Assembly: GCF_943733665.1 (NCBI RefSeq)
Contig: NZ_OX030782.1
Span: forward strand, 1,886,501 to 1,950,500
DNA length: 64,000 bases
Direction of reading: 5' to 3'
DNA from: Aquimarina sp. Aq107
GTDB lineage: Bacteria > Bacteroidota > Bacteroidia > Flavobacteriales > Flavobacteriaceae
Part shown: one piece after another, positions 23,010 to 30,022 of the stretch
How the letters are laid out: each line of letters begins with the position of its first letter
Position numbering within the stretch: the stretch's first letter is position 1
Notes under the pieces: generated by a model
Databases searched by the model: none
Seen by the model: only the letters and a program-made list of their open reading frames with translations
What the model was told of the DNA's origin: nothing
Made by a program: the position numbers and the translations under genes

Positions 23010-23045
23010 AAAAGAGTTTCTTCTTAACTAAGAAGAAACTCTTTT
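23010..23045. terminator. Bidirectional terminator between the M28-like gene and thrC
   Basis: A 16-bp stem (23010-23025 with 23030-23045), loop AACT. It overlaps the last codons and stop of thrC. On the minus strand the stem is followed by TTAGAATATTTTTATTT, which closes the thr operon. Confidence 0.85.
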
Positions 23046-24313
23046 AGTTTGTTATAATCATTGGTTTTAATGCTAACTTTTTCTTTGTTCATTACTTTTT
23101 GAATCTGCGGAGGAATTGATATTTTAGTATCTAAAGTTTCTTCGACAATATCCAAGAATTTAACAGGATGAGCGGTTTCTAAAAATACTCCGTATTCATT
23201 TTCTTTTAAATTATACTCTTTTAATCCAAGATAACCGACTGCTCCGTGAGGATCTGCTATATATTTTGTCTCTTGATAAACTTCTTTCATAGCCTGTTTT
23301 GTACTCTGATCATTAAAACTATAAGCAGAAAAGCTACTTTTTAAAGATTCGAAGTTATTATCGAATAATTGTTGAATTCTAATAAAATTACTTGGATTAC
23401 CTACATCCATAGCATTAGATATAGTTGCTTTAGAAGGTTTTGGATCATAATCTTTCGTATTCATATATCTAACAACAGTATCATTTACATTGGTAGCAGC
23501 TACAAAATGCTTGACAGGAAGTCCTAATTTATGAGCTACAATCCCGGCACAAATATTTCCGAAATTACCACTTGGAACAGAAAATACAATATCTTTTCCT
23601 TTACTTTTCAATTGTTTATAAGCAAAAACGAAATAGAATAATTGTGGTAACCATCTTGCGATATTGATAGAATTGGCAGAGGTTAATTGTTTATGATCTG
23701 TAATACTTTTATCTAGAAATGCTTTTTTTACCATATCCTGACAATCATCAAATACGCCATCTACTTCTAGCGCTGTTATATTTTGTCCAAGTGTTGTTAA
23801 TTGTCTTTCTTGTATATCACTAACTTTACCAGAAGGGTATAAAATAACCACATCTACACCTTTTACTCCAAGAAAACCTTGTGCTACTGCACCTCCAGTA
23901 TCGCCAGATGTAGCTACTAATACGGTAACTTTATTATCATTGTTTCTATTAAAATATTCTAGACAACGTGCCATAAATCGAGCACCTACATCTTTAAAAG
24001 CCATTGTAGGCCCATGGAAAAGCTCTAACGTACCTATATTTTCTTTGATATCAATTACAGGAAAATCAAAACTGAGTACATCTTTTAGAATATCTTTTAA
24101 TTCTGTATCAGGAATCTCATCACCCACGAATTGTTTAATAGTTTGAAAACCAATTTCTATGGTGTCTAAATTTTCAATAGTATCAAAAAAAGATGAAGGT
24201 AAAGGAGTTATATTTTCAGGAAAATATAGACCTTTATCTGGAGCTAATCCTTTTATAACTGCTTCAGAAAAAGGTACTTTAGGAGCGTTATTATGTAAAC
24301 TATAATATTGCAT
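23024..24313 (-). CDS. thrC: Threonine synthase
   Basis: 429 residues. A PLP enzyme that converts O-phosphohomoserine to threonine, the last step of the pathway. The N-terminal signature MQYYSLHNNAPKVPFSEAVI, the PLP lysine K107 in TMAFKDVGARFMAR, the SGDTGGAVAQGF phosphate loop and SVPSGNFGNICAG are all seen. Length and layout match the bacterial ThrC type with a domain of about 430 residues. Last gene of thrA-thrB-ridA-thrC; 19 bp separate it from ridA. Confidence 0.97.
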   Translation of the reverse strand: MQYYSLHNNAPKVPFSEAVIKGLAPDKGLYFPENITPLPSSFFDTIENLDTIEIGFQTIKQFVGDEIPDTELKDILKDVLSFDFPVIDIKENIGTLELFHGPTMAFKDVGARFMARCLEYFNRNNDNKVTVLVATSGDTGGAVAQGFLGVKGVDVVILYPSGKVSDIQERQLTTLGQNITALEVDGVFDDCQDMVKKAFLDKSITDHKQLTSANSINIARWLPQLFYFVFAYKQLKSKGKDIVFSVPSGNFGNICAGIVAHKLGLPVKHFVAATNVNDTVVRYMNTKDYDPKPSKATISNAMDVGNPSNFIRIQQLFDNNFESLKSSFSAYSFNDQSTKQAMKEVYQETKYIADPHGAVGYLGLKEYNLKENEYGVFLETAHPVKFLDIVEETLDTKISIPPQIQKVMNKEKVSIKTNDYNKLKEFLLS

Positions 24314-24332: not shown

Positions 24333-24698
24333 TTATGAAACTATAGCAGAGAATTCAATCTCTACTAAAATATTGGGATCAATTAGTTTAGAAACTTCTA
24401 CCATGGATGTTACAGGTTTTATTTTGCCAAAGTATTCTCCATGAGCTTTACCAATTTCTTCCCATTTGCTAATGTCTGTACAGTATATTCTCGTTCTAAT
24501 TATTTGATTTAAATTAGCATTGAATTCTTTTAGTACATTCTTTACAGACTCAATAATAGCTTTAGTTTGCTCATATTCGTTTTCTCCAGGAGCTGTTGTT
24601 CCCGATACTTCGATAGTATTACCAATTTTAATGGCTCTTGAATATCCTACAATATCTTCCCAAGGAGAACCTGTTGCTATTTTTTTAATTTCTTGCAT
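24333..24698 (-). CDS. ridA: RidA-family protein (enamine/imine deaminase)
   Basis: 121 residues, normal for the Rid (YjgF/YER057c/UK114) family. Conserved features are the substrate-anchoring Arg in IIRTRIYCTDI, the GEYFG segment, and the closing VEIEFSAIV. Canonical RidA hydrolyses reactive enamine intermediates such as 2-aminocrotonate, released when threonine dehydratase acts on threonine. Its place inside the threonine operon, one base after thrB, makes a role in handling threonine-derived intermediates likely; this is inference. It could also belong to another Rid subgroup, since I cannot place it exactly without comparison. Confidence 0.85.
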   Translation of the reverse strand: MQEIKKIATGSPWEDIVGYSRAIKIGNTIEVSGTTAPGENEYEQTKAIIESVKNVLKEFNANLNQIIRTRIYCTDISKWEEIGKAHGEYFGKIKPVTSMVEVSKLIDPNILVEIEFSAIVS

Positions 24699-24699
24699 A

Positions 24700-25623
24700 T
24701 CAATTAATTATTTTAACTCCTTGACTATTGATTTTAGAAATATGAATATCAAAGTCAAGTCCTGTTTTTGTATACACTTTATGTATTGCGTTTCCTACGT
24801 TTTTAGCGGTGGTCATACTTTTGCTTAAAGCAAATATTGAAGGTCCAGAACCTGAAATTCCACATCCTAAGGCACCTTCTGCAATGGCTGCTTTTTTAAC
24901 GTTTTCAAATTCCGGAATTAGAATCGATCGCATAGGTTCAATGATCACATCTTCTAAACTACGACCTATTAGATCATAATCCTCGGTAAAAAGGCCAGAT
25001 ATAAAACCTCCAACGTTACCCCATTGATGTATTGCTTGCTTTAATGTTACATTTTGCTTTATAACGGATCGTGCATCCGAAGTTTTTACTTCAATTTGAG
25101 GATGAATAACAGTCATCACTAAATCATCAGGCGTGTGTAATTTGATCACATCCAATGGGGCATAACTTCGCACTAAAGTAAATCCACCTAATAGGGCAGG
25201 AGCAACATTATCTGCATGGGCATTTCCACTTGCAAGTTTTTCTCCTTCCATTGCGAATTCGACTAATTTATGAGGAGAAAAAGGATGATCCAATAGATGA
25301 TTTACAGCCCAAACAGCTCCTGCACTACTAGCAGCACTACTGCCTATACCACTTCCTGCTTTGATTTTCTTGTAAATTTCAATATCTACTCCAATTTCAT
25401 TTTTATAATTCGCTAATAAAGCCTCTACAGCAACACCAGCTACATTTTTTTTAGTATCTAAAGGGAGGTCAGCACCCTCGATTTTTGTAATTCTTACACC
25501 TGGATTGGGTGTAAGTGATATGATCATTTCATCTCCTACAGTATCTAAACAGCAACCTAGTACATCAAATCCACAAGAAAGATTCGCTACGGTAGCTGGA
25601 GCAAAGATCTTTATACTTTTCAT
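24700..25623 (-). CDS. thrB: Homoserine kinase
   Basis: 307 residues of the GHMP kinase superfamily. The N-terminal motif FAPATVANLSCGFDVLGCC and the ATP loop GSGIGSSAASSAGAVWAV are both clear, and GCGISGSGPSIFALS near the C-terminus is the third GHMP motif. It phosphorylates homoserine with ATP to O-phosphohomoserine, the ThrC substrate. The gene follows thrA by 14 bp and precedes ridA by one base, so it is firmly within the operon. Confidence 0.97.
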   Translation of the reverse strand: MKSIKIFAPATVANLSCGFDVLGCCLDTVGDEMIISLTPNPGVRITKIEGADLPLDTKKNVAGVAVEALLANYKNEIGVDIEIYKKIKAGSGIGSSAASSAGAVWAVNHLLDHPFSPHKLVEFAMEGEKLASGNAHADNVAPALLGGFTLVRSYAPLDVIKLHTPDDLVMTVIHPQIEVKTSDARSVIKQNVTLKQAIHQWGNVGGFISGLFTEDYDLIGRSLEDVIIEPMRSILIPEFENVKKAAIAEGALGCGISGSGPSIFALSKSMTTAKNVGNAIHKVYTKTGLDFDIHISKINSQGVKIIN

Positions 25624-25637
25624 TTTAACATTGAGAT

Positions 25638-28082
25638 TTACTTTTTACCAATTCTTATAATGTCAGCAAATATACCAGATGCTGTTACTTCTGCACCAGC
25701 TCCAGCTCCTTTTACAATAAGAGGTTGTTCTGGATAGCGGTCTGTATAAAAAAGAACAATATTATCGCTTCCTTCTAAATTGTAGAACGGATGATCAGCA
25801 GGAATGTGTTGTAAACCTACTTTTGCTTTACCATTCTCATATTGAGCAACATACTTCAATCTACATTCTTTTTTGTTAGCTTCCTCTAGAATTTTAGCAA
25901 AATGAGCTTCGTTCTTTTTTAAGGATTCGAAAAAATCATCAACAGTTGGAGTATCCAAACTTTGTTGTGGTAAAAAAGCATCTTTTTCGATATCCTCTAG
26001 TTCCATGATTTGACCACTTTCTCTAGCCAGAATTAGAATTTTTCTAGCGACATCAACACCACTTAAATCAATTTTTGGATCTGGTTCGGTGTACCCTTCT
26101 TCCTGTGCTTGTTTTACAACATCATAAAAATTAGTATCTTCATTATAATTGTTAAATACAAAATTTAAACTACCCGATAACACTGCTTGTATTTTATGGA
26201 CATTATCACCTGACGCAATCAGATTGTTCAAGGTATCTATGATAGGTAAACCAGCACCTACATTAGTTTCATAAAGAAAAGAAGCGCTAAATTTTCGCGA
26301 AAGCTCTTTTAACTCAGAATAGTTAGCATATTCATCAGCACAAGCAATTTTATTGCAGGTTACAACCGCCATACTTTCTGATAAATAGTGCTTATATACT
26401 TTGGCAATATCTGGATTCGCGGTATTATCTACAAAAATCGAATTACGGATATTCATTGCTTTAGCAGTCTCAAAGAATTTTTCTGAATTCGCTTTTTCTC
26501 CACTAGCTAATTTATCTTCCCAAGAACTTAATTTAATTCCTTGTTCATCAAAAGCCATAGTTCTTGAATTAGAAATTCCCACTACACGTATCTTTAAGCG
26601 TAATTTATCATTTAAGTAACTTTTTTGCTGTTCTAATTGTGATAACAGCTTACTACCTACATTACCTACACCTGTGATAAATAAATTAAGTTGTTTTGTT
26701 TTTACTTCGAAAAAACGTTCGTGTAAAATATTTAGGGCTTTTTTGATATCTTTTTTTCCAATTACAACAGAAATATTTTTTTCAGAAGCTCCTTGAGCTA
26801 TTGCTCTAATATTTACATTGTTTTTACCTAAAGTGCTAAACATCTTACCACTTAAACCTTGATGGTGATACATATTATCACCAACTAAAGCAACGATAGC
26901 AGCGTCATTTTCAATTTTTACAGGATCTACTTTATGCTTTGTAATTTCAAACTCGAAAGCAGAATCTAAAACTGTTTTAGCTTTTTCTGCATCAACAGCT
27001 TCTACAGCTAAGCAGATAGAATGTTCAGAAGAAGCTTGAGTAATTAAGATTACATTGATATTTTCTAAAAATAAAGCTTCGAACAAACGTTTTGAAAACC
27101 CTGGAATACCAACCATTCCACTTCCTTCTAAGGATATTACAGAAATATTATCAATATGACTAATACCGGTAACTGGTTTTGGTCTATTAGTTACTTCTCT
27201 AGTAATTAAAGTACCTTGATCTTCAGGTTCAAAAGTATTTTTGATAACAATCGGAATGTTTTTATCTAAAACAGGATGAATTGTTGGAGGATAAATAACT
27301 TTAGCTCCAAAATGAGACAATTCCATCGCTTCCTGATAAGAAATGTGTGATACAGGTTTTGCTTGTTTTACTAATTTAGGGTTGGCAGTGTACATTCCAC
27401 TTACATCTGTCCAAATTTGTAATTTGTCAGCTTGTATACCAGATGCTAAAATTGCTGCTGTAAAATCTGATCCGCCTCTTCCTAAAGTTGTAGGTTCTCC
27501 AGCTGATGTTCTTGCTACAAAACCTGGAAATAGACTGATCTGATGTTTGTTATCCTCGGCGTATCGTTTTATTCTAAAATTAGTTTCTTCATAATCAATA
27601 GTAACTTTCGAAGCTTCTGTTGTAATAATATAATCTCTAGAATCTTTTAAAACGATGTCTAATCCTTTTACTTTGGCAGCTTCAGAAATTATAAAAGAGG
27701 ATAACATTTCTCCAAAACTAGCAATTACAGATTCGGTTTTAGGAGATAACTCACTTAGAAGATATACTCCTTCACAAAGGGATTCTAGTTTATTTAACTC
27801 TGATTTGACTTTGCTGATTATAGAGCTTTGCGAAACCACCGGGATTAATTCCTTGATAGCTTCGAGATGCCTACTTTCTATAATTGTTAGCGTATTTTTA
27901 TATTTTTCGTTGTTAGAAGAAGCTTCTTTACCAGCCTGTATTAATAGATCTGTAATTCCGCCAAGGGCAGAAACAACCACATAAAGAGGTTTGTTTACAG
28001 ACTGTTTTTCGATGATTTCTATTACTTTTTCTATAGTAGCTGCATTTGCAACTGAGGAACCTCCAAATTTTAGAACGTTCAT
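25638..28082 (-). CDS. thrA: Bifunctional aspartokinase / homoserine dehydrogenase
   Basis: 814 residues, the usual length for this fusion. Aspartokinase part: residues 1-~285 beginning KFGGSSVANAATIEKV, with FVARTSAGEPTTLGRGGSDF. Two regulatory ACT domains lie at ~300-455. Homoserine dehydrogenase part from ~465: Rossmann motif FITGVGNVGSKLL, catalytic region YTEPDPKIDLSGVDVARKIL. It performs the first and third reactions of the aspartate pathway towards threonine; in enteric bacteria the enzyme is inhibited by threonine through the ACT domains. First structural gene of the operon, preceded by a leader peptide gene and a strong promoter. Confidence 0.97.
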   Translation of the reverse strand: MNVLKFGGSSVANAATIEKVIEIIEKQSVNKPLYVVVSALGGITDLLIQAGKEASSNNEKYKNTLTIIESRHLEAIKELIPVVSQSSIISKVKSELNKLESLCEGVYLLSELSPKTESVIASFGEMLSSFIISEAAKVKGLDIVLKDSRDYIITTEASKVTIDYEETNFRIKRYAEDNKHQISLFPGFVARTSAGEPTTLGRGGSDFTAAILASGIQADKLQIWTDVSGMYTANPKLVKQAKPVSHISYQEAMELSHFGAKVIYPPTIHPVLDKNIPIVIKNTFEPEDQGTLITREVTNRPKPVTGISHIDNISVISLEGSGMVGIPGFSKRLFEALFLENINVILITQASSEHSICLAVEAVDAEKAKTVLDSAFEFEITKHKVDPVKIENDAAIVALVGDNMYHHQGLSGKMFSTLGKNNVNIRAIAQGASEKNISVVIGKKDIKKALNILHERFFEVKTKQLNLFITGVGNVGSKLLSQLEQQKSYLNDKLRLKIRVVGISNSRTMAFDEQGIKLSSWEDKLASGEKANSEKFFETAKAMNIRNSIFVDNTANPDIAKVYKHYLSESMAVVTCNKIACADEYANYSELKELSRKFSASFLYETNVGAGLPIIDTLNNLIASGDNVHKIQAVLSGSLNFVFNNYNEDTNFYDVVKQAQEEGYTEPDPKIDLSGVDVARKILILARESGQIMELEDIEKDAFLPQQSLDTPTVDDFFESLKKNEAHFAKILEEANKKECRLKYVAQYENGKAKVGLQHIPADHPFYNLEGSDNIVLFYTDRYPEQPLIVKGAGAGAEVTASGIFADIIRIGKK

Positions 28083-28125
28083 AATATATTTTTTATAATG
28101 ATGTATTTGATAAAGCTTTTCGTTC

Positions 28126-28146
28126 GTTTATTTACTTAAAATAAAC
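28126..28146 (-). other. AT-rich stem-loop between the thr leader and thrA
   Basis: GTTTATTT / AAATAAAC, an 8-bp perfect inverted repeat with a 5-nt loop, 32-64 bp after the leader stop. On the minus strand it is followed by GAACGAAAAGC rather than a T run, so it does not look like an intrinsic terminator. It might take part in alternative folding of the leader mRNA. Confidence 0.35.
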
Positions 28147-28177
28147 TAACTACTTAATTTCTATGATATATAAATGA

Positions 28178-28291
28178 TTAACCCCTAAGGGTAATAATAA
28201 TAGTAGAAGTACGTGTAAATGAAGTGTAGGCGAAAGCCGCTGTTGTTCCTAACGCGAAAAGTAAAACCGAGATTGAAACCGTACTAAACAT
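28178..28291 (-). CDS. Threonine operon leader peptide (thrL-like)
   Basis: A 37-codon frame with ATG at 28291 and TAA at 28178-28180, 95 bp before thrA. The peptide begins MFSTVSISVLLFALGTTAA and ends FTRTSTIIITLRG. The last 15 residues hold four Thr and three consecutive Ile, the amino acids whose charged tRNAs report the pathway's end products, just as in enteric thrL. The ATG is about 16 nt past the predicted transcription start of a perfect promoter (28314-28342), so it is the first translated frame of the thr mRNA. The N-terminal half is hydrophobic and signal-like. A weak AT-rich stem-loop (28126-28146) lies between leader and thrA, but no intrinsic terminator is seen, so the control mechanism is not clear. 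Confidence 0.75.
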   Translation of the reverse strand: MFSTVSISVLLFALGTTAAFAYTSFTRTSTIIITLRG

Positions 28292-28313
28292 TAGTTTGAT
28301 TTATATTTAAGTT

Positions 28314-28342
28314 CAAATGTATAATTTTTTACTTTTGAACAA
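28314..28342 (-). promoter_or_regulatory. Promoter of the threonine operon
   Basis: On the minus strand TTG (28342-28340), 18 bp, TACATTTG (28321-28314): full match to the Bacteroidota consensus TTG-N17-23-TAnnTTTG. Transcription would start near 28307. The first reading frame is the leader peptide at 28291. Confidence 0.8.
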
Positions 28343-28486
28343 AATAAAAACGTTAGTAATCATAAACTTTTATTGATACTTTAATTTAAGGCTATATTCG
28401 TTAAAGCATTCTTAAAAAAATCAAATCAAAAAGGATTATCAATGTTTATAACATGTATTAACAAATAATCACTAAAATTTAAACTT

Positions 28487-30022
28487 GTGAAGATATTTTC
28501 CGCTGATCAAATGCGTAAGGCAGACGAAGTAACTATTCAATCTCAAAAGATTACTTCTTTAGAGTTGATGGAAAGAGCTGCTACTCAAATATTCAATGTT
28601 TTACATCAACGATTGCAAGGAGCTCCGATTCCGATTCATGTATTTTGCGGTATTGGAAATAATGGAGGAGATGGTTTAGTGATTTCACGTTTGTTAGTGG
28701 AACATGGATATCACGTAAAGACATATATCGTAAATTTTAGTGATAAAAGATCTGATGGTTTCTTAGTAAATTATGATCGTTTAAAGGGAATAGGAGTAGA
28801 ATGGCCTGTGCAACTAAAGTCCGATGAAGATTTTCCAGAGATCAAGCAACAGGATATGGTAATCGATGCAATTTTTGGGATAGGTTTAAATAGGCCGGTA
28901 GTACCTTGGGTTATTAATTTAATTAAGCATATTAATGCGTCCAGATGTTTTACGTTATCTATAGATGTACCTTCAGGTTTATATGCAGATAAAGGACCAG
29001 ATGATCCAGAAGGTGTTATATATGCTTCTACAACCGTTACTTTTCAATTACCTAAGCTAATATTTTTCTTACCAGAAACTGGACAGTATTCTCAAGACAT
29101 GGAGGTTATTGATATAGGCCTAAGTAGAGAGTTTATATCCCAAACTCCGGGCTTTGCAGAATTAATAGGTAAGAACGAAGTACTTTCTCTATACAGGCCT
29201 CGTCATAAATTTGCTCATAAAGGAGATTATGGACATTGTTTACTTATTGGAGGAAGTTATGGTAAAATAGGTAGTACAGTTTTAGCAACAGAAGCTGCTT
29301 TAAGAATAGGAGCGGGCCTTGCTACTGCATATATTCCAGAATGTGGATATGATATTTTACAGTCTACGGTTCCCGAAGCAATGGTTATTACGGATGAAGA
29401 AGATGATTATATCTCTAAAATAAAGTTTGATATTAAACCATCCGTTATTGGAGTAGGAGTTGGTTTAGGAACTAATGATAAAACGATTGAGGCATTTGGC
29501 GAATTCTTAAAAGAAAATAAAACTCAATTAGTGATTGATGCTGATGGGATTAATATATTAGCTCATAAAACAGATCTATTACAGTATATACCAGCAAAAA
29601 CGGTATTAACTCCACATCCTGGAGAATTAAAACGTTTGATAGGGGATTGGAAAGATGATTTTGATAAGATTAGTAAAGTAAAAGAGTTTACTAAAAAGAA
29701 TGATTGTATTATTGTAGTGAAAGGAGCAAATAGTTTGGTTATTTATCAAGATGATATTTATGTAAATACTTCTGGTAATCCAGGAATGGCTACTGCTGGT
29801 AGCGGAGATGTGTTAACTGGAATTATAACAGGTTTAATTTCTCAAGGATATGATTCGCTGCACGCAGCAGTATTTGGAGTTTATTTACACGGTAGTGCTG
29901 GAGATATAGCAATTCAACAAACTGGTTATCAGGGTTTACTAGCAAGAGATATTATTTCCCACATAGGAAAATCTTATATAGAATTATTCAAAAAACCACA
30001 ACAAGCACCGCCAGAAGCATAA
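28487..30022 (+). CDS. nnr: Bifunctional NAD(P)H-hydrate epimerase / ADP-dependent NAD(P)H-hydrate dehydratase
   Basis: 511 residues, the normal length of the fused enzyme. The N-terminal YjeF_N epimerase domain (about 1-215) has FCGIGNNGGDGLVISRLL and the SIDVPSGLY loop. The C-terminal dehydratase domain (about 225-500) has LLIGGSYGKIGSTVLATEAA, TPHPGELKRL and the ATP/ADP-site motif GMATAGSGDVLTGIITGLI. It repairs damaged, hydrated NADH and NADPH in the cytoplasm. The start is a GTG at 28487; the alternative ATG (residue 9) would cut conserved N-terminal residues. Divergent from the thr operon, with about 145 bp from the thr promoter. Confidence 0.95.
   Translation: MKIFSADQMRKADEVTIQSQKITSLELMERAATQIFNVLHQRLQGAPIPIHVFCGIGNNGGDGLVISRLLVEHGYHVKTYIVNFSDKRSDGFLVNYDRLKGIGVEWPVQLKSDEDFPEIKQQDMVIDAIFGIGLNRPVVPWVINLIKHINASRCFTLSIDVPSGLYADKGPDDPEGVIYASTTVTFQLPKLIFFLPETGQYSQDMEVIDIGLSREFISQTPGFAELIGKNEVLSLYRPRHKFAHKGDYGHCLLIGGSYGKIGSTVLATEAALRIGAGLATAYIPECGYDILQSTVPEAMVITDEEDDYISKIKFDIKPSVIGVGVGLGTNDKTIEAFGEFLKENKTQLVIDADGINILAHKTDLLQYIPAKTVLTPHPGELKRLIGDWKDDFDKISKVKEFTKKNDCIIVVKGANSLVIYQDDIYVNTSGNPGMATAGSGDVLTGIITGLISQGYDSLHAAVFGVYLHGSAGDIAIQQTGYQGLLARDIISHIGKSYIELFKKPQQAPPEA

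Follow-up and report, generated by a model that had tools for sequence, protein, structure and literature searches.

A probable threonine leader peptide upstream of thrA in Aquimarina and related Bacteroidota, with a conserved hairpin at its stop codon and no intrinsic terminator found

A short open reading frame rich in threonine and isoleucine codons, located just upstream of thrA in Aquimarina sp. Aq107, is conserved in most relatives of the same family, and is best regarded as the leader peptide gene of the thr operon. The frame resides on the reverse strand of the window, as we call the whole stretch of 64,000 nucleotides analysed in this work. Leaving the output step aside, it is very probable, on comparative evidence, that threonine is sensed by a ribosome moving along the Thr codons. 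The complete scheme, an attenuator lacking an intrinsic terminator in which a hairpin at the stop codon (P1) and Rho provide the output, is proposed tentatively, at a little under an even chance. The features involved are the following.

28314-28342, reverse strand: match to a promoter of the Bacteroidota type (TTG at 28342-28340, 18 nt, TACATTTG at 28321-28314; read from the sequence)
28178-28291, reverse strand: ORF of the thr leader peptide, MFSTVSISVLLFALGTTAAFAYTSFTRTSTIIITLRG (37 codons plus TAA; kept in relatives, shuffle-controlled)
28208-28285, reverse strand: P0 helix, 5' arm AGTACG at 28285-28280, 3' arm CGTACT at 28213-28208 (minimum free energy fold)
28190-28216, reverse strand: putative regulatory run of Thr/Ile codons, ACA CGT ACT TCT ACT ATT ATT ATT ACC (read from the sequence)
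28181-28192, reverse strand: P1 hairpin, ACCC-TTAG-GGGT, which holds the last Thr codon and ends beside the stop codon (sequence, fold and comparison)
28160-28173, reverse strand: element in register with P1, here TTATATATCATAGA (weight matrix site in L003, whose sequence is identical; majority pattern ATATHWYCNNYNG)
28083-28180, reverse strand: stretch from P1 and the leader stop to the thrA start (G-depleted from P1 to thrA in relatives)
28122-28150, reverse strand: P2 hairpin, AT-rich and without T run (11 pairs around one mismatch in the fold)
25638-28082, reverse strand: thrA, bifunctional aspartokinase/homoserine dehydrogenase (Pfam AA_kinase, ACT, Homoserine_dh)
24700-25623, reverse strand: thrB-like homoserine kinase (GHMP kinase domains; named by position)
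24333-24698, reverse strand: RidA-like protein, between thrB and thrC (PF01042)
23024-24313, reverse strand: thrC, threonine synthase (PF14821, PF00291)

The 37-codon frame and the promoter singled out by an earlier note on this DNA are both present as described. The promoter match lies 22 nt before the ORF start, and the leader stop is separated by 95 nt from the ATG of thrA at 28082, the spacing which had been reported. Of 133 curated relatives, 94 have a sequence fitting TAnnTTTG 5' of the leader, against 12 of 133 mononucleotide shuffles (TAnnTTTG alone); in 87 of the 133 it is accompanied by an upstream TTG or TTT box. According to Pfam, the gene order is thrA-thrB-ridA-like-thrC, and among named relatives the best is A. 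latercula (97% identity in ThrA). RidA enzymes remove the reactive intermediates that threonine dehydratase produces, and a RidA-like gene is, given this role, a sensible partner in a thr operon. A divergent gene encoding a YjeF_N/Carb_kinase protein (NAD(P)H-hydrate repair; 28487-30022, forward strand) has its upstream region in common with the thr leader.

Conservation of the leader among relatives

Regions upstream of thrA were collected from 80 named contigs and from a search of 149 genomes of the same family, each standing for one genus, and further regions were added. The family set includes 110 loci, and leaves out G103, G062 and G067, which have near full-length ThrA matches, along with genomes whose ThrA matches are partial or weaker. 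The earlier note had suggested looking for the small frame in related genomes. A leader defined by a strict rule (CCC-N3-8-GGG 50-240 nt 5' of thrA, surrounded by at least two Thr and at least four Thr/Ile codons, within an open frame provided with a start) was found in 84 of the 110 family loci; on ten shuffled sets the same rule identified none of 110 nine times, and one of 110 once. Among the 26 remaining loci there are, by eye, cases in which thrA follows other coding DNA, and two thr leaders which bear a terminator (L186 and L188). Three loci (L144, L171 and L180) look positive, yet fail the strict rule. At L153, L157, L161, L176 and L178 a leader was not found, and thrA directly follows coding DNA, by eye presumably the end of a threonine dehydratase-like gene, in a different operon order. 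In one of the region sets gene starts were placed at the last in-frame ATG, which misplaces some of them, as at L314 (genome G127; the leader was seen there as L140). When all sets were pooled, and 2 loci without upstream DNA left out, a score combining P1 and Thr/Ile codons exceeded the 99th percentile of dinucleotide shuffles in 133 of 190 regions.

A curated set of 150 loci was reduced to 133 by removal of near-duplicates at 90%, the figure being the same as above by coincidence. Members of this set were admitted only with CCC or TCCGC within the P1 arm or next to it, and their reading frame was chosen by Thr/Ile content; within these terms, the leaders have a median length of 33 residues, of which 20.5% are Thr and 13.4% Ile, the values for ThrA itself being 4.8% and 9.1%. 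Composition is thus in keeping with the analogy to E. coli thrL proposed earlier. The frequency of Thr is 0.35-0.56 at codons -6 to -3, 0.38-0.39 at codons -2 and -1, and 0.80 at codon 0, the one containing the first base of P1. Comparable Thr/Ile-rich leaders were also found in Chitinophagaceae and other Bacteroidota.

The N-terminal half of the Aquimarina peptide is hydrophobic, and this had led to the suggestion that membrane targeting of the nascent chain takes part in control. The mean Kyte-Doolittle value of the first 18 residues is 1.69 in this leader versus 0.26 over the 133, and an 18-residue window above 1.6 occurs in 20% of them. Hydrophobicity is therefore a trait of the genus and not of the leaders in general, and membrane targeting is for this reason unsupported. 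The leader ORF begins with 37 nt (28291-28255, reverse strand) that are identical in 9 of 13 sequences of the Aquimarina group; conservation of the N-terminal DNA within the genus may be due in part to the helix AGTACG/CGTACT, though the P0 arm explains only part of the identical stretch.

The hairpin at the stop codon and the element in register with it

The CCC (or TCC) triplet of P1 is found in a single reading phase in 133 of 133 leaders, the frame having been chosen by Thr/Ile content. The stop codon is located beyond P1 (64 leaders), in contact with the loop (46) or within the 3' arm (23). The arms occur in several compensatory forms (ACCC/GGGT, ACCCC/GGGGT, ACAACCC/GGGTTGT, CAATCCGC/GCGGATTG and TCCGC/GCGGA). 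Because the curated set required CCC or TCCGC, the CG content of the inner pairs is partly there by construction. For the same reason the freest evidence comes from three more distant genomes (L324, L326 and L333), found by reading, in which the arms are exchanged (ACGGG/CCCGT) and the stop codon is still in the loop. Within Aquimarina, the four pairs of P1 are invariant in 12 sequences, and one cell departs in 13.

A second conserved sequence was found downstream by fitting a weight matrix to the 45 nt which follow P1. One site was forced on each sequence, and the matrix therefore cannot reveal the absence of the element from any of them; yet the sites carry 9.1-9.2 bits each versus 5.0-5.2 in five shuffled sets. 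The element starts 2-12 nt after P1 in 128 of 133 leaders. Its distance has a standard deviation of 2.3 nt when measured to the centre of P1 and of 7.0 nt when measured to the stop codon (129 of 133; 4 with sites further down were left out), which ties the element to the hairpin rather than to the point at which translation ends.

A covariance model of P1 and the element (R1) was built from 32 sequences, excluding the present one and including two of the same genus. In the genome of Aq107 the model has a single match at E ≤ 1, and this is at the thr locus (E 7.5e-5). In 60 genomes of the family, searched with stricter filters, matches at E ≤ 1 were found in 38 and none in 22; 23 of the 24 matches at E ≤ 0.01 are at thrA, 12 of them belonging to training sequences and 11 not. 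The remaining one (G018:C2:511289, E 0.006) lies, by eye, 5' of the gene for ribosomal protein S12, and was taken as a chance match. In a class-wide search, a P1 hairpin exactly as in the window (ACCCTTAGGGGT) was observed at L336, in a Met/Thr-rich leader-like ORF (...TVMFMCTMTLRG, by eye) about 230 nt before thrA, in RNA lacking the excess of C over G described below.

That the frame is a chance ORF devoid of function is suggested by its short length, and by nothing else. Conservation in the family far beyond shuffled sets, the number of upstream regions over the 99th percentile, the single match of R1 in its own genome, and the Thr/Ile-rich content of 133 leaders together with the constant phase of P1 make this scarcely credible, and on comparative grounds we take it as refuted by conservation, short of experiment. 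Alternatively, P1 and the element may be a site recognised by a protein or by RNA polymerase, as in antitermination by NusG paralogues or of the put type, licensed by the stalled ribosome. Conservation of the element beyond structure, and its occurrence with P1 at one site of the genome at E ≤ 1, would fit this view; the placement of the Thr codons does not, since a stalled ribosome would block P1 rather than allow it to form, and we hold the recognition site to be improbable.

Terminators, RNA composition and other pairings

Terminator-like sites were not found at 28000-28450 in the window. The terminator rule identified 3 of the 133 thr leaders (L025, L035 and L172), and in all three the stem is P1. 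When applied to other leaders found in the same family, the rule identified 11 of 13 his, 9 of 9 phe and 14 of 16 trp leaders. The leaders of his, phe, ilv and trp operons had been flagged in 13, 9, 13 and 16 cases, respectively, among 30 loci each; the script left the gene start unplaced for many loci, and absence of a leader from the others is therefore not claimed. The 13 flagged ilv leaders (4 with a terminator) include spurious ORFs, and their rate was not used. The genome of Aq107 hosts leaders of these four kinds.

L194: His leader, MKNILLHHHHSYISAQAW, with a terminator by the rule
L265: Ile/Val leader, MKIQIQNIIIVNIISIVVIISSG, with a terminator by the rule
L374, reverse strand 437-499: Trp leader, MKIILTNTWWWSSYNENVVR, followed, by reading, by a GC stem with a T run
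L377, reverse strand 471-548: Phe leader, MSNLFTWNRFYFFFFYFKSKIGIAM, followed, by reading, by a GC stem with a T run

In this genome, the his, ilv, trp and phe operons thus appear to follow the textbook design, and threonine a different one. Thr leaders bearing terminators do exist in the phylum, in the same family (L186 and L188) and, by reading, in other families (L329 and L334). Both thr designs thus coexist in Bacteroidota, so that one could follow where the terminator was gained or lost. Rfam, whose families include the proteobacterial Thr leader and the T-box, gave no match at gathering scores in the window, and none up to E 1 for 28000-28400.

The same sensing could be coupled to another output, P1 and the AU-rich element being themselves the off signal, as a hairpin-dependent pause or a weak intrinsic terminator which has no pure U tract and acts without Rho. 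The element is in register with P1, an AU-rich tract follows the hairpin, and at three loci the stem of P1 passes the terminator rule. But 130 of 133 leaders lack a stem plus T run passing the rule, while most his, trp and phe leaders found in the family do have such T runs, and depletion of G all the way to thrA is left unexplained. An output of this kind is possible, though unlikely.

The RNA between P1 and thrA has indeed a peculiar composition. Frequencies of C and G are 0.180 and 0.082 in the 133 relatives, against 0.158 and 0.152 in 170 control regions located upstream of other ORFs from the 80 named loci, of which 5.9% are as poor in G. The difference between C and G is 0.098 in thr and 0.006 in the 170 control regions (p 5e-30). 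The bias is absent upstream of hisG, pheA, ilvD and trpE, where values range from -0.05 to +0.02 (15, 14, 15 and 29 regions, respectively). In the terminator-bearing leaders of the family, L186 and L188, G exceeds C (0.167 and 0.205 against 0.077, terminator included), and C and G are near balance in two distant thr leaders with terminators. C exceeds G in 6 of 7 leaders of the P1 type picked from the class-wide search, L336 being the exception. RNA rich in C and poor in G is the typical look of Rho loading sites. Spaced YC dimers (the rut pattern) were found in 3 of 133 thr and 0 of 115 control regions, too rarely to speak for or against Rho loading. The RNA-binding domain of Rho is encoded in the genome of Aq107, and in 143 of 149 genomes of the family (125 of the 125 good ones); its presence does not discriminate between the designs, because G059 and G076, which have terminator-bearing thr leaders, have Rho too. 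Depletion of G could also result from selection for unstructured RNA on other grounds. Rho, coupled translation and mRNA decay, named earlier as alternatives to the classic switch, are still live, and the excess of C over G lends indirect support to Rho.

The AT-rich stem-loop placed earlier at 28126-28146 is real and is not followed by a T run, but is larger than had been stated, extending from 28150 to 28122. In an alignment of 12 Aquimarina sequences, both sides have changed in 4 of the 12 pairs of P2. The covariation score of P1 and P2 together is 0.116 in these sequences, P1 being invariant, versus at most 0.059 in slid versions, and was attained by none of 500 shuffles; further pair types over P1 and P2 are not unusual (131 of 500 shuffles). 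Stems are enriched in the P2 region of relatives, 37% of 133 reaching p ≤ 0.05 versus 9% in a control region. Support for the P0 helix in Aquimarina is weak to moderate: both sides have changed in 2 of 6 pairs in 13 sequences of the Aquimarina group, and the score of P0 and P1 was attained by 24 of 500 shuffles. P0 was rejected as a general feature, as helices 5' of the Thr run are only modestly enriched (26% of 133 at p ≤ 0.05 versus 9% in the control region; 20% versus about 9% expected in a further test).

The predicted fold of the whole leader is no better than those of shuffles (z -0.47). Over 133 loci, contiguous duplexes between the Thr run and downstream RNA are at the level of chance (median p 0.47), and those between the 3' arm of P1 and downstream RNA below it (median p 0.70). 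A long-range pairing between the ORF start and RNA past P1 (ACGGAC/GTCCGT) was noticed at L085, L095, L110 and L125, and was set aside as restricted to few related loci; over the 133 loci the median p is 0.37, with 9.8% at p ≤ 0.05. Switching between Thr codons and P2 (ATTACAAC/GTTGTAAT), seen at some loci, was likewise discarded as not general.

The earlier judgement that the classic switch between terminator and antiterminator does not fit this leader is borne out by these data, neither a terminator nor competing pairings above chance having been found. A thrL-type switch in which P2, or a hairpin not seen here, is the terminator would agree with the presence of a leader with cognate codons, and with the terminator-bearing thr leaders known elsewhere in the phylum. 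Yet P2 is not followed by a T run, pairing of the Thr run is at chance and that of the P1 3' arm depleted, and the classical switch is disfavoured to the point of being very improbable.

Control might also be exerted after transcription, with the stalled ribosome guarding the 5' end from RNases, or altering access to the thrA start, in a switch of decay or translation. Lack of a terminator and the presence of P2 between leader and thrA would be compatible with this output. A comparable case is the uORF toiL, in which ribosome stalling unmasks the next gene (PMC12121999). Pairing between the leader and the thrA start region is, however, no more frequent than in shuffles (median p 0.55), and the distance from P1 to thrA varies from about 60 to 180 nt, some gene starts being possibly misplaced. 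A post-transcriptional output is unlikely.

A possible mechanism and known systems

In the scheme preferred here, the ORF would encode a threonine (and isoleucine) leader peptide, and its translation would control transcription into thrABC. When charged tRNA-Thr is short, the ribosome would stall on the Thr codons abutting P1, and cover both the 5' arm of the hairpin and the C-rich RNA of the codons; P1 would not form, and RNA polymerase would continue into thrA. With ample threonine, the ribosome would reach the stop codon, inside or just behind P1, and depart; P1 would then form, and RNA polymerase would be delayed at the element, located at a nearly fixed distance from the hairpin. Rho would load on the freed, G-poor RNA of the Thr codons and of the interval before thrA, and terminate transcription. 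Stalling is expected to block P1 because the Thr codons run right up to and into it, and formation of P1 should therefore correspond to the off state. P1 and the element look like a hairpin-assisted pause, and joint action of hairpin and polymerase would predict the observed spacing of the element to P1 rather than to the stop codon. The G-poor RNA may be the landing site of Rho. Timing would matter, since a ribosome that has arrived at the stop codon would likewise occupy P1. Translation of the ORF, stalling, the delay imposed on RNA polymerase by P1, the action of Rho and the direction of the effect are all steps that we infer. Against the model speak the four invariant pairs of P1 in Aquimarina, the unremarkable fold of the whole leader, and L336, where C does not exceed G. 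The Thr codons (ACN, C-rich and nearly free of G) might serve both as sensor and as loading site of Rho in several Bacteroidota lineages, an idea less likely than not. If true, a single run of codons would be sensor, antiterminator and rut at once, and the stalled ribosome would at the same time hide the site and block the hairpin which holds the polymerase.

Few RNA-based switches for amino acids have been described in Bacteroidota, a major phylum, which would here gain a conserved and directly testable one. The thr leader departs from the textbook terminator design, which the other four leaders of the genome keep, and attenuation with and without a terminator can naturally be compared side by side within one cell. 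The leader also provides a route to ask whether Rho and pausing of RNA polymerase act in the control of amino-acid synthesis in these bacteria. Leader, P1 and element may further be used as a marker to annotate regions 5' of thrA, where Rfam gave no match.

Leader peptides have been hinted at in this phylum. For Flavobacterium psychrophilum, PMC9723704 mentions “strong clues” for leader peptide attenuation 5' of amino-acid biosynthesis operons, and structured 5' elements at genes that include pheA and hisG; its main text makes no mention of thrA. The earlier note had called the thr leader overlooked, which holds for thrA in that main text, but not for attenuation by leaders in Flavobacterium, already suggested there in general terms. 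Short ORFs resembling leader peptides have been described within long 5' UTRs of Bacteroides thetaiotaomicron (PMC7366714), and words beginning with Bacteroid- or Flavobacteri- are absent from the main text of PMC2965389. No paper on a thr leader in Bacteroidota was found among the matches listed from open-licence PMC texts, and an earlier mention elsewhere is possible.

Several known systems resemble the one described in this work. In E. coli, thrL is a short ORF located just 5' of thrA, with many Thr and Ile codons, and the ribosome is the sensor. The same arrangement and the same sensor are proposed here; unlike in E. coli, an intrinsic terminator and general competing hairpins were not found, and the leader has, in their place, the P1 hairpin by its stop codon, an element spaced to that hairpin, and G-poor RNA. 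Attenuation dependent on Rho is known for E. coli tnaC, where the ribosome stalls at the stop codon of the leader through free Trp and the nascent peptide. The two systems have in common a leader peptide, the lack of an intrinsic terminator, a role proposed for Rho and a ribosome shielding RNA near the leader; in contrast to tnaC, stalling would here take place at hungry Thr codons, and a conserved hairpin lies over or beside the stop. Rho-dependent attenuation at tnaC is cited in PMC1262725, which describes cys leaders of Mycobacterium. These have cognate codon runs near the stop and no terminator, as the thr leader does, and their authors suggest a role for Rho, while rating the Rho prediction as rather weak because its motifs are not conserved. 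A difference is that no conserved hairpin which might be a terminator is reported for the cys leaders. A further comparison is offered by the his, trp, phe and ilv leaders of the same family and genome, which share with the thr leader the runs of cognate codons; most of those found, unlike the thr leader, have GC stems with T runs.
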